From the NCBI RefSeq assembly GCF_007988905.1, contig NZ_BJVA01000001.1, forward strand, positions 124,001-188,000: a stretch of DNA of 64,000 bases. Direction: 5' to 3'. A program made the position numbers and the translations under genes. The notes beneath the pieces are model-generated. The model worked only from the letters and a program-made list of their open reading frames with translations. It was not told the origin of the DNA and ran no database searches. Below, in pieces: positions 21,845 through 28,029 of the stretch (its first letter is position 1; every line of letters begins with the position of its first letter). This DNA comes from Gluconobacter kanchanaburiensis NBRC 103587. GTDB taxonomy: Bacteria; Pseudomonadota; Alphaproteobacteria; Acetobacterales; Acetobacteraceae.

Positions 21845-21865
21845 TCAGGCGATGTAACGCCAAAT

Positions 21866-21904
21866 AAAAAAGGCCGGTCGGGATAATCCCGACCGGCCTT
21901 TTTT
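21866..21904. terminator. Bidirectional rho-independent terminator
   Basis: AAGGCCGGTCGGGA and TCCCGACCGGCCTT form a perfect 14-bp stem around a TAA loop, with an A run on the left and a T run on the right. It lies between two converging genes, the lipoprotein and rne, and can stop both. Confidence 0.95.
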
Positions 21905-21927
21905 ATGAAGAGGAAAACGCTGAGCGA

Positions 21928-25295: not shown

Positions 25296-26144
25296 ATGCT
25301 GACGCGACGTACACTGACCAGCGCCCTGAGCAGCGGTTTCTGCGCTGGTGTGTCGGGGGGGGCGTTTCTTGTGCCCCGGGCTGCCCTGGCCCGCCACGCG
25401 GCGCACGCGAAACTTCATACGCCGGCCATTCATAAAGGAGCAGCCCCTCCAAAGCCGCTGGTGATGCTGGATCCTGGTCATGGAGGCAAAGATCCGGGAG
25501 CGATCGGGGTTTCCGGAACCTATGAAAAACATATTGCCGAAGCCGCAGCTTCGGAACTGAGTCGTCAGCTTCTGGCCTCGGGGCGTTACCGGGTGGCGAT
25601 GACGCGCTCTGAAGACCGTTTCATTCCGCTGGAAGGGCGGGTCGAAATGGCGCAGCGACATCAGGCCCATCTCTTCATTTCCATGCATGCCGACGCCCTG
25701 CATGACAGGGATGTGCGAGGCGCAAGTGTCTATACATTGTCAGGTGGGGCATCCGATGCCCAGACAGCATCTCTCGCGCGGACGGAAAACAGCGCGGACC
25801 GCTTCGCTGGTCCCGCATTTCACGGTATGTCGCCGGATGTACAGCAGATCCTGGCAAGTCTCGTTTCGGAAGAGACGCGCCGGGGTTCAGCACATATGGC
25901 GGCCAGTGTCGTGAACTCGTTCCGAAACAGAATCGGGTTGCTGACCCATCCGGCCCGCCATGCCGCGTTCGTGGTCCTGAAATCCTCCGAGATCCCTTCT
26001 GTTCTGGTGGAGATGGGTTTCATGTCCAATCGGCTGGATGAAGCGGCCCTGCGTCAGGCCGTGCATCGCACCCAGGTCGCCAACGCAATGAAAACGGCCA
26101 TAGACCGTTATTTCGCAACGAATGCAGGCGTCATGACAGGGTGA
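25296..26144 (+). CDS. amiC: N-acetylmuramoyl-L-alanine amidase (Amidase_3)
   Basis: This enzyme cuts the amide bond between peptide and glycan in peptidoglycan, usually to separate daughter cells. The 282-residue protein starts with a twin-arginine signal (TRRTLTSALSSGF), so it should be exported folded by the Tat system, whose tatBC genes are also in this window. The zinc amidase motifs are present: MLDPGHGGKDPGAIG, SMHADAL and the catalytic glutamate in VEMGFMSN. There is no AMIN domain. It is divergent from rne, an arrangement usual in alphaproteobacteria; a class A penicillin-binding protein gene often follows there, but here leuA does. Confidence 0.92.
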   Translation: MLTRRTLTSALSSGFCAGVSGGAFLVPRAALARHAAHAKLHTPAIHKGAAPPKPLVMLDPGHGGKDPGAIGVSGTYEKHIAEAAASELSRQLLASGRYRVAMTRSEDRFIPLEGRVEMAQRHQAHLFISMHADALHDRDVRGASVYTLSGGASDAQTASLARTENSADRFAGPAFHGMSPDVQQILASLVSEETRRGSAHMAASVVNSFRNRIGLLTHPARHAAFVVLKSSEIPSVLVEMGFMSNRLDEAALRQAVHRTQVANAMKTAIDRYFATNAGVMTG

Positions 26145-26220
26145 CCCAATGTTTTTGCATTGGAGACTTTATGTTCATGCGGGTTGCGCATGGCGCAAGA
26201 ATCAGTCATTGAACGCAGCC

Positions 26221-26265
26221 ATGACGTTTCTTTCGATCCTCTCGCTTCGACTTATCGGCCCCTGA
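26221..26265 (+). CDS. leuL: Putative leucine leader peptide (14 aa)
   Basis: A 14-codon frame encodes MTFLSILSLRLIGP, with four leucines and two isoleucines, in the leuA leader. Its TGA lies inside the 5' arm of a strong hairpin. Such Leu-rich peptides act as ribosome-stalling sensors in leucine attenuators. The ribosome-binding site is weak (GCAGCC before the ATG), so translation is inferred from the peptide composition and the RNA structure. Confidence 0.6.
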   Translation: MTFLSILSLRLIGP

Positions 26266-26333
26266 ACGCCTTATTCTAGGCGGACAGCGCTCCGTTGCGT
26301 TCAGGGGATAACAGACCGAAAGCCACCCTGAAC
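26259..26333 (+). promoter_or_regulatory. leuA attenuator-like switch with two exclusive hairpins
   Basis: Segment 1 CCCCTGAACGC (26259-26269) pairs perfectly with segment 2 GCGTTCAGGGG (26297-26307). Segment 2 also pairs through GTTCAGGG (26299-26306) with segment 3 CCCTGAAC (26326-26333), just upstream of the leuA start. The two hairpins cannot coexist. The leader-peptide stop lies in segment 1, so a ribosome finishing the peptide would hide it and favour 2:3 pairing near the leuA ribosome-binding region, while stalling at early Leu codons would leave 1:2 free. There is no T run, so control of translation or Rho access is more likely than intrinsic termination. Confidence 0.6.
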
Positions 26334-26353
26334 CAGACGAGACGATCTCCATC

Positions 26354-27922
26354 ATGACTTTCCATCACCCGTCCTTCGGCACCATCGCCGACGACCGCGT
26401 CATTATTTTCGACACTACGCTGCGCGACGGCGAGCAGTCTCCCGGCTTTTCGATGAACCTCGAAGAGAAGCTCCGTATGGCCCATGCGCTGAGTGCTCTG
26501 GGCGTGGATGTGATTGAAGCCGGGTTCCCCGTGGCGTCCGAAGGCGATTTCGAGAGTGTGCGCCGGATTGCCGAAGATGTCCGTGGATCGGTGATCTGCG
26601 GTTTGGCCCGCAGTGGTGGTAAGCGCGATATCGAATCCTGTGGCGAGGCCCTGAAAAAAGCCGAGCGACCGCGGATTCACAACTTCATTTCCACGTCTCC
26701 GCTGCACATGAAATACAAGCTGCGTATGGAGCCGGAAACGGTTCTGGAAATCATTGCCTCGGGCAACCAGAAGGCGCGCCAGTACACGGATGACGTGGAA
26801 TGGTCGGCTGAGGACGGCTCGCGGACCGATCCTGATTTTCTGTGCCGTTGCGTCGAAATGGCGATCCGCAATGGCGCGAACACGATCAACATTCCCGATA
26901 CGGTCGGCTTTGCTACACCGGAAGAAATGCGCGCGATCTTCACCATGCTGCGCGAACGCGTGCCGGGTGCGGATCAGGTGATTTTCTCTGCGCATAACCA
27001 CAACGATCTGGGCCTCGGCGTTGCGAACACGCTGGCGTCCGTCGAAGGTGGCGCACGGCAGATCGAATGTACGATCAACGGCATCGGCGAGCGCGCAGGT
27101 AATGCGGCGCTTGAAGAAATCGTCATGGCGTTGCGCACGCGTCACGATCAGTACGGTAAGACGACTGGTATTGAGACGACAAAGCTGCTGGGCATGTCCC
27201 GCATGCTGGCGACGATCACGGGTTTTGATGTCCAGCCGAACAAGGCCATCGTCGGACGTAATGCATTCGCTCATGAAAGTGGCATCCATCAGGACGGGAT
27301 CCTGAAAAACGCTGCGACTTACGAAATCATGACGCCGGAAAGCGTAGGCTGGAACAAGACCTCGCTGGTCATGGGCAAGCATTCCGGCCGTGCGGCATTC
27401 CGCGACAAGCTGGCGCAACTCGGTTATCCGCCGCTGGAAGACGATGCCCTGAACGCCGCGTTTGCGCGCTTCAAGGATCTGGCCGACAGCAAGAAAGTCG
27501 TTTTTGATGATGATATCCGAGCGCTCGTCGATGATGAAAGTCGTGACCACGAGCGGGTTCATCTGATTGCACTGGAACTGGCGTCGGGCACGAAGCAGAA
27601 GGCTCGTGCCAAGCTGGAGATCAGCGTTGATGGTGCCATCCAGTACGCGGAAGTCAGTGGCAATGGGCCTGTCGACGCAGCTTTCCGCGCAATAGGCGAG
27701 GCTTTCCCACATACTGCTGAGCTGGCCCTCTTTTCTGTAGCCAACGTGACTGAAGGTACGGATGCACAGGCTCGCACGACGGTCCGTCTGCAGGAAAACG
27801 GCAAACTCGTGGACGGGCAGGGCGCCGATGCTGATACGGTGGTATCCGCAGTCCGGGCCTATATTCACGCACTGAACAAGCTTCTCACCAAGCGCGAACG
27901 CACCGAGCCGGAAGCTCTGTAA
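26354..27922 (+). CDS. leuA: 2-isopropylmalate synthase
   Basis: LeuA condenses acetyl-CoA with 2-oxoisovalerate, the committed step of leucine synthesis. The 522-residue protein has the DRE-TIM barrel motif TTLRDGEQSPGFSMN, the metal-binding HNHNDLGLGVANTLAS block, RAGNAALEEIVMAL and HESGIHQDG. The C-terminal third is the leucine-binding regulatory domain, so feedback inhibition is expected. Expression is probably also controlled by the leader described above. The gene is monocistronic, closed by a strong terminator 12 bases downstream. Confidence 0.97.
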   Translation: MTFHHPSFGTIADDRVIIFDTTLRDGEQSPGFSMNLEEKLRMAHALSALGVDVIEAGFPVASEGDFESVRRIAEDVRGSVICGLARSGGKRDIESCGEALKKAERPRIHNFISTSPLHMKYKLRMEPETVLEIIASGNQKARQYTDDVEWSAEDGSRTDPDFLCRCVEMAIRNGANTINIPDTVGFATPEEMRAIFTMLRERVPGADQVIFSAHNHNDLGLGVANTLASVEGGARQIECTINGIGERAGNAALEEIVMALRTRHDQYGKTTGIETTKLLGMSRMLATITGFDVQPNKAIVGRNAFAHESGIHQDGILKNAATYEIMTPESVGWNKTSLVMGKHSGRAAFRDKLAQLGYPPLEDDALNAAFARFKDLADSKKVVFDDDIRALVDDESRDHERVHLIALELASGTKQKARAKLEISVDGAIQYAEVSGNGPVDAAFRAIGEAFPHTAELALFSVANVTEGTDAQARTTVRLQENGKLVDGQGADADTVVSAVRAYIHALNKLLTKRERTEPEAL

Positions 27923-27934
27923 AAGATCATCTAC

Positions 27935-27976
27935 AAACAGGCGTGAAGGGACTGACCCGCACGCCTGTTTTTTTTT
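27935..27976 (+). terminator. Rho-independent terminator of leuA
   Basis: AAACAGGCGTG and CACGCCTGTTT form an 11-bp stem with a 14-base loop, followed by a long T run. Confidence 0.95.
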
Positions 27977-28029
27977 GTCTACCGATTATTTAACTAATTA
28001 AAATAGTTTATATAATCGGTAGACAAAAA
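27972..28029. repeat. 18-bp perfect inverted repeat upstream of the TauE/SafE gene
   Basis: TTTTTGTCTACCGATTAT (27972-27989) is repeated exactly in inverted form as ATAATCGGTAGACAAAAA (28012-28029), around a 22-base AT-only-like spacer that itself contains AACTA/TAGTT. The left arm overlaps the leuA terminator T run. The structure ends 46 bases before the transporter start codon. The AT-rich palindrome looks like an operator pair or a cruciform; it is not a terminator, since the right side is followed by A, not T. Confidence 0.7.

Follow-up and report, generated by a model that had tools for sequence, protein, structure and literature searches.

A putative leucine-sensing leader element conserved upstream of leuA in Alphaproteobacteria, with predicted pairing between its leucine codons and the leuA Shine-Dalgarno region

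Introduction

The leu operon attenuator of Escherichia coli and Salmonella, represented in Rfam as Leu_leader, combines a leader peptide containing Leu codons with an RNA structure downstream of it. In erm-type translational attenuators, a ribosome stalled on the leader frees a sequestered ribosome-binding site, the trigger being the antibiotic together with the nascent chain, and TnaC exemplifies arrest by a nascent peptide at termination in response to tryptophan. As for the Alphaproteobacteria, the 2004 work of Vitreschak reportedly covers ilvIH.

The nearest described system, which the element reported here resembles in architecture, is the actinobacterial LEU element. In the account of Seliverstov et al. 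(2005, PMC1262725) it lies 5' of leuA, carries a leader ORF with a run of Leu codons, and folds so that this run pairs with the leuA Shine-Dalgarno (SD) box in a base stem, with an inner pseudoknot or alternative hairpin. The same account considers that the element is possibly bound by a protein, because leader mutations in Streptomyces behaved unlike classical attenuation, and leaves the mechanism open. Within the Alphaproteobacteria, leader attenuation has been described for other genes, namely trpE in Sinorhizobium (according to PMC10117765) and ilv in Caulobacter, the latter as transcription attenuation by a Rho-independent terminator, with a leader containing Ile and Val codons 5' of the ilv genes (according to PMC4117421). 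Our search of the open-access literature, carried out mostly at the level of listings, recognised no description of an alphaproteobacterial leuA leader; leuA was not found in the main texts of papers about premature terminators, about RNA motifs of alphaproteobacteria and about the transcripts of Caulobacter, Sinorhizobium and Gluconobacter, and the main text of a Gluconobacter oxydans RNA-seq paper mentions neither leuA nor a leader peptide.

Here we describe such a leader in the window, by which we mean the whole 64-kb stretch of Gluconobacter DNA that was analysed, and compare it with its relatives in other genomes. An earlier note, made from the sequence alone, had proposed a leucine attenuator-like element 5' of leuA in which two mutually exclusive hairpins act as a switch.

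Results

The features of the locus are collected in Table 1. The leader ORF comprises 14 codons, four of them Leu and two Ile (ATG ACG TTT CTT TCG ATC CTC TCG CTT CGA CTT ATC GGC CCC TGA), and lies 88 nt 5' of leuA, whose best named relatives are Gluconobacter genes (up to 99%). The hairpin arms, 11 nt each with 27 nt between them, are 100% complementary, and the direct repeat CCCTGAAC has its other copy at 26260-26267. What the earlier note had said of the leader's composition, of the stop codon inside the first arm of a perfect 11-bp hairpin, and of the missing T run was borne out throughout. The leader ATG is at 26221 and its stop at 26263-26265; a consensus scan of 26000-26500 returned no terminator-like site, and the hairpin is not followed by a U run in the window.

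Table 1. Coordinates of the leuA leader features within the window.
Feature	Position	Strand	Basis or remark
Possible promoter TTGCGC-N17-CATTGA	26184..26212	+	by eye, a weak guess; ends 8 nt 5' of leader ATG
Leader peptide ORF, MTFLSILSLRLIGP followed by stop	26221..26265	+	sequence; Leu at codons -4, -6, -8 and -11 from stop
Base stem, predicted 5' strand, GAUCCUCUCGCU, within leader codons 5-9	26235..26246	+	duplex, fold, cognate-specific pairing
Invariant Leu codon -4, CTT	26251..26253	+	Leu in 124/124 dereplicated and 46/46 held-out loci
Arm A of hairpin, CCCCTGAACGC, holding leader stop TGA (26263-26265)	26259..26269	+	inverted repeat; covariation
Arm B of hairpin, GCGTTCAGGGG	26297..26307	+	inverted repeat; covariation
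CCCTGAAC, repeat of part of arm A and possible partner of arm B; clade-restricted	26326..26333	+	direct repeat
Base stem, predicted 3' strand, AGACGAGACGAUC, leuA ribosome-binding region	26335..26347	+	duplex, fold
leuA, 2-isopropylmalate synthase, 522 aa	26354..27922	+	LeuA_dimer PF08502 match, E 4.3e-31; relatives

The promoter candidate was picked by eye, as were its relatives: TTGCG recurs in 13 of 14 aligned upstream regions from Gluconobacter, Neokomagataea and Saccharibacter, and CATT stands 17 nt further on in nine of the 14. A sigma-70 consensus scan of 26000-26500 rated no site there as promoter-like, this candidate included. If it is a promoter, the leader mRNA would have its 5' end at or near its AUG, as PMC10117765 describes for the trpL mRNA of Sinorhizobium.

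The window contains 31 perfect 11-nt inverted repeats (overlapping, loop 3-40), and 20 dinucleotide shuffles average 1.55, so that hairpins of such size are above chance and several others are present in the window. Folded on its own, the window leader is only mildly unusual (z -1.68, with 12 of 200 shuffles equally good), and the case therefore has to rest on comparison. Long perfect inverted repeats are also seen at 27972-28029, just 3' of leuA, and at 21864-21906, near the end of a ribonuclease E-like gene; these are probably terminators. Rfam 15 at gathering score matched one tRNA only in the window and left the element unmatched, and among eight relatives searched at E up to 1 it gave three matches, none of them overlapping the element. 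A terC RNA (RF03067) above the gathering score was seen in one relative (L140, 567-627, minus strand), about 0.9 kb from its leuA leader.

A covariance model, R1, built from 49 sequences (the window and 48 relatives, out of 60 distinct cores; alignment A1), gave hits in 355 of 397 genomes of Acetobacteraceae and in 82 of 385 sampled from the Alphaproteobacteria as a whole. A retrained model of 74 sequences (alignment A4, from 79 loci offered) matched 121 of the 385, a count taken at E 0.01 with strict filters, for which a leuA without a match does not amount to proven absence of the element. In a phylum-wide search R1 matched 35 of 299 genomes, 33 of these within the class; one of the two matches outside it was checked (L234) and has no leuA beside it. 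A curiosity of Gluconobacter alone is ruled out by the family and class counts, and what the models detect is, as judged from sequence, a conserved leuA leader element across many alphaproteobacteria.

Directly downstream and on the same strand, leuA is present in 210 of the 210 distinct class loci that the models fetched and that were checked. These comprise 30 (L082-L111) and 40 (L182-L221) loci from the family, 40 (L142-L181) and 29 (L113-L141) from the class, 51 held-out loci (L250-L300; leuA downstream in 51 of 51) and 20 distinct loci from the phylum search; not counted are six phylum loci that duplicate others, G599 (a class hit of R1) and the family hits in excess of these 70. We also looked for a pattern, namely a frame ending in approximately Leu-Arg-Leu-x-x-Pro, a stop within CCCCTGA or CCCCTAG and a downstream arm ending in AGGGG, in the 80 best named leuA loci (406 candidates encoded a relative) and found it in 76; since these loci were fetched via their leuA, they are no evidence that the element sits 5' of that gene. 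Three of the four loci that fail the pattern are damaged or variant. One of these (L079) has a variant element with a leader ending in RPWA. In Asaia astilbis and A. prunellae (L027 and L038; 100-130 nt 5' of leuA) arm A has two and one C fewer, respectively, which moves the leader frame past its usual stop, and these elements are perhaps decaying copies. In the fourth locus, from an AT-rich Acetobacter MAG of sheep abomasum (L072), no such element, nor anything similar, was found 5' of leuA.

A second type of LeuA, about 26-30% identical to the query, stands behind the same leader in L131, L135, L140, L223, L225, L232, L242, L247, L250, L273 and L300. The leader is thus common to two kinds of LeuA, which suggests either that the enzyme was replaced beneath a retained leader or that both were transferred.

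For the comparison of sequences, 185 loci were dereplicated to 124, 63 from Acetobacteraceae and 61 from other alphaproteobacteria; 46 of the 51 held-out loci had a usable leuA start, and 44 were retained. An open frame with a start codon at least eight codons upstream is found in all 124 dereplicated loci (ATG in 113) and in all 46 held-out ones. Its end is strongly conserved: Leu occupies codon -4 in 170 of 170 loci and codon -6 in 119 of 124 (37 of 46 held-out), and Pro stands at codon -1 in 123 of 124 (43 of 46 held-out). Codon -5 is Arg in 109 of the 124 loci, Leu in 13 and Gln in two, and in the held-out set Leu in 23 and Arg in 22 of 46; CGA encodes 108 of the 109 Arg residues, so that constraint seems to act on the nucleotides and not on the residue. 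The stop position holds TGA in 103 loci, TAG in six, TGG in 14 and another triplet in one, and where it is TGG the frame continues a little (e.g. RPWA-stop). Across the 124 loci the last 16 codons include on average 5.12 for Leu (range 1-8); the corresponding figure for the two remaining frames is 1.58.

Conservation extends to the nucleotides. Codon -4 is CTT in 115 and CTA in nine of the 124 loci (40 and six in the held-out set), never CTC or CTG, and a CT at offset -8 from arm A is present in 124 of 124 and 46 of 46 loci; across 29 long ORFs of the window, 18.7% of Leu codons are CTT and 6.6% of Arg codons are CGA. The heptamer CGACUUA (26248-26254 in the window, and in relatives) is conserved as nucleotides beyond the need of peptide or pairing. 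It is near-invariant though codon -5 can be Leu, and no pairing partner was found that explains all loci; a slow CGA codon ahead of the decisive CUU is possibly the reason.

The hairpin itself covaries. In an alignment that was fitted to the model's structure, and hence leans toward a paired result, 98.0% of A:B cells are paired and five of nine pairs have changed on both sides, each value being reached in 0 of 500 shuffles; a third measure, further pair types, was equalled by 10 of 500. The leader stop lies 77-153 nt 5' of the first matched leuA residue in the 76 named loci. The earlier note's leucine attenuator-like element 5' of leuA is backed by this combination of a conserved peptide end, Leu codons and a covarying hairpin.

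The base stem was recognised by reading loci by eye, which gave the idea for its test. For each locus, the duplex energy of its own leader with its own ribosome-binding site (RBS) was set against GC-binned permutations among genomes. Over 124 loci the cognate duplex came to -14.93 kcal/mol against -13.00 kcal/mol permuted (0/5000, z -8.6), with z -5.8 in Acetobacteraceae (63 loci) and z -6.3 in other families (61 loci). Most of the signal lies in the last 24 nt before arm A (z -7.5), the stretch 24-45 nt before it giving z -2.6. The 44 held-out loci reproduced it for the last 24 nt (z -3.8, 1/5000; controls -1.1 to -0.2) and more weakly for a 45-nt window (z -2.6, 25/5000).

Could such a signal arise trivially? 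Chance complementarity, CUY resembling an anti-SD sequence, is shared by swapped pairs, yet own pairs are better. An artefact of base composition is countered by the GC-binned permutations, reversed leaders and shifted windows, the controls over all 124 loci lying between z -1.8 and +0.4 (further upstream -1.0, reversed leader +0.2, leuA codons +0.4, leuA -44 to -22 -1.8); within sub-groups the controls range from z -2.4 to +1.7, and that of leader against leuA codons in Acetobacteraceae (-2.4) is not null. Shared ancestry might inflate the count, and the signal persists with one locus per family (43 families, ten draws; 0/4000 each, z -5.1 to -7.0). At single loci it is less sharp: the own RBS is in the best tenth of partners for 29 of 124 loci (median rank 37.5 of 124), and several Acetobacter loci, e.g. 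L039, L045, L051 and L062, have no cognate advantage. The predicted Leu-codon/SD pairing is a population signal, absent from some loci.

This predicted pairing is a general second one that the earlier note had missed. The guess made there that translation initiation, as an alternative to Rho, may be the target is supported. The note's own second hairpin, between arm B and CCCTGAAC, stood only in part: the 8-nt pairing exists in the window, but it is enriched only in Acetobacteraceae. At least 6 nt complementary to arm B occur downstream of it in 23 of 63 Acetobacteraceae loci (11.6% in shuffles) and in seven of 61 loci from other alphaproteobacteria (10.1% in shuffles), and at least 8 nt in 16% of Acetobacteraceae against 0.6% in shuffles. 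In the aligned leaders, the check that the note had suggested, the first stem covaries and the Leu codons are conserved; the second pairing is at chance level outside Acetobacteraceae. Overall, the note's interpretation is partly supported. The arm-A copy begins 2-3 nt after arm B in 14 of the 23 loci, as in AGGGGAACCCCTGAG, and 18 nt after it in Gluconobacter; copies of the AGGGGAACCCCTGAG type give a compact alternative hairpin. Arm B followed at once by such a copy (AGGGGAACCCCTGAG or similar) was seen in L183, L187, L195, L200, L210 and other Acetobacteraceae loci. Its restriction to one clade speaks against this hairpin as the general switch, and it is better described as a predicted, lineage-specific addition.

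In folding calculations the window gives 0.72 for the SD region paired to leader codons and 0.80 for the hairpin, and over the loci the SD-leader mean is 0.44. With a modelled stalled ribosome, the mean SD unpaired probability goes from 0.37 to 0.44 (124 loci), increasing by more than 0.2 in 24 loci and decreasing by more than 0.2 in five; with a swapped RBS, modelled stalling raises it by 0.04. A modelled ribosome at the stop codon gives 0.43, nearly the same mean as the stalled one, so that the contrast between the two depends on kinetics. In the window the values are 0.27 for the free RNA, 0.40 for the stalled ribosome and 0.25 for the ribosome at the stop. The models agree in direction, but weakly, with a stalled ribosome freeing the SD region, and the thermodynamic switching that they predict is modest.

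Discussion

We consider it probable, at roughly six chances in ten, that this leader is a ribosome-operated switch which tunes leuA to leucine supply mainly via leuA translation, i.e. by translational attenuation. Sequence comparison shows three predicted features that carry this reading: a leader ORF mostly ending in Leu-(Arg/Leu)-Leu-x-x-Pro-stop, with the stop within arm A of A:B; a base stem joining the Leu-codon stretch just 5' of arm A to the SD region of the same leuA; and a fixed distance from the last Leu codon to arm A. A ribosome is described in PMC4833913 as covering about 12 nt downstream of the codon being read. Given the fixed distance, 12 nt counted onward from Leu -4 (window positions 26254-26265) extend precisely to the leader stop inside arm A, and as Leu -4 is invariant, arm A would lie under a ribosome starved at that codon. 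The last 24 nt, where the base stem is strongest, would likewise lie beneath a ribosome halted at Leu -4.

With ample leucine, the ribosome would complete the leader and depart, and A:B would then form along with the base stem, concealing the leuA start. When leucyl-tRNA is scarce, the ribosome would wait at the last Leu codon and cover arm A as well as the 24 nt of codons that pair with the SD region, so that neither helix could form and leuA would be translated. In part of the Acetobacteraceae, the window included, the freed arm B may then pair with the nearby arm-A copy and so be kept off the start site, and in Commensalibacter-like, AT-rich relatives the U-run hairpin may act as a terminator by the same logic.

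Such a device would share with the E. coli/Salmonella leu attenuator a Leu-codon leader read by the ribosome, RNA structure downstream and leucine biosynthesis as its target, but nearly all loci have no U run, and the repressive helices would be prevented by the ribosome itself. Of the hallmarks of classical ribosome-mediated transcription attenuators, the Leu-rich leader is found here and an intrinsic terminator before the structural gene is lacking in nearly all loci; as regards a mutually exclusive antiterminator helix, the arm-A copy occurs in 23 of 63 Acetobacteraceae loci and elsewhere at chance level (seven of 61). With erm-type attenuators, as these are described, it would have in common that a stalled leader ribosome unmasks a ribosome-binding site, the erm trigger being different (antibiotic and nascent chain). 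The Caulobacter ilv attenuator belongs to the same class of bacteria and likewise has a leader peptide for branched-chain amino acids with a ribosome pausing on an RNA hairpin; by its description, however, it is a case of transcription attenuation through a Rho-independent terminator, with Ile/Val codons and an ilv target. The actinobacterial LEU element, going by its description, is alike in its position 5' of leuA with a Leu-codon leader ORF (here in 210 of 210 model-fetched loci) and in a base stem of Leu codons and the leuA SD box enclosing further helices (here a population signal). It differs in phylum and in its pseudoknot or alternative hairpin, whereas the inner helix here is, among the nested helices examined, a simple hairpin with the leader stop and a near-invariant CGACUUANNNGCCCCUGA core.

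The U-less hairpin leaves room for another route. Rho might terminate transcription in the spacer of about 50 nt when the leader is free of ribosomes or the hairpin has formed, a stalled ribosome blocking Rho loading or the hairpin. This would suit the lack of a U run at most loci and the untranslated RNA after the leader stop (arm B to leuA, median 54 nt), but it leaves the match of leader codons to the SD region of the same genome's leuA unexplained, and we regard it as unlikely.

That A:B is itself an intrinsic terminator, whose formation is directly prevented by a ribosome stalled at the Leu codons, we regard as very unlikely. TTTTTTTT (U8) directly follows arm B only in a Commensalibacter MAG (L074) and a similar, AT-rich locus (L168), and even a loose U-rich test after the hairpin was passed by only nine of 124 loci and three of 46 held-out ones; the window and nearly all relatives tested lack such a run, which speaks against an intrinsic terminator as the general case. 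In the two exceptions (L074, around 2329-2412, and L168) the leader ends in FQLISP or FQLSSP and the hairpin is then followed by eight T; there it looks like an intrinsic terminator, as far as sequence can indicate.

Re-initiation would turn the base stem to the opposite use, ribosomes that terminate on the leader being brought near the leuA start and restarting there, which would raise translation with no leucine sensing. The folded element does draw the two ORFs together, and re-initiation at leader peptides has already been proposed (PMC4833913). The enriched leader-gene distance given there for Actinobacteria is 10-11 bp, against 77-153 nt here, and conservation of the Leu codons would be left unexplained, so that we see little chance of this account being correct. 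Least probable of all is that the L-R-L-x-x-P-stop C-terminus stalls termination as a nascent arrest peptide sensing leucine or another metabolite, since the conservation that invites this idea (Pro -1 in 123 of 124, Arg -5 in 109, Leu -4 in all) includes a Pro that arm A dictates, position -5 varies (Leu or Gln in 15 of 124 loci, Leu in 23 of 46 held-out ones), and TGG stands in place of the stop codon in 14 of 124.

Through translational attenuation, much of a large bacterial class would possess a concrete means of regulating leuA, whose product is the enzyme at the entry to leucine synthesis. As a more tentative proposal, which we hold with rather less than even confidence, the element might be an ancient alphaproteobacterial leucine sensor that dispenses with a dedicated anti-structure, the starved ribosome at a spaced, invariant Leu codon being both anti-hairpin and anti-sequestrator, and its hairpin would have drifted between control of translation in most lineages, a third segment added in parts of Acetobacteraceae and an intrinsic terminator in Commensalibacter-like genomes. 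The loci offer a natural series of cases, with a single hairpin that may control either translation or transcription. The finding also bears on the mechanism of the actinobacterial LEU element, left open by its describers. If it is true, then, taken together with the LEU element, pairing between Leu codons and the leuA SD region would have arisen twice or be very old, since the CUY codons of Leu are inherently complementary to Shine-Dalgarno sequences.
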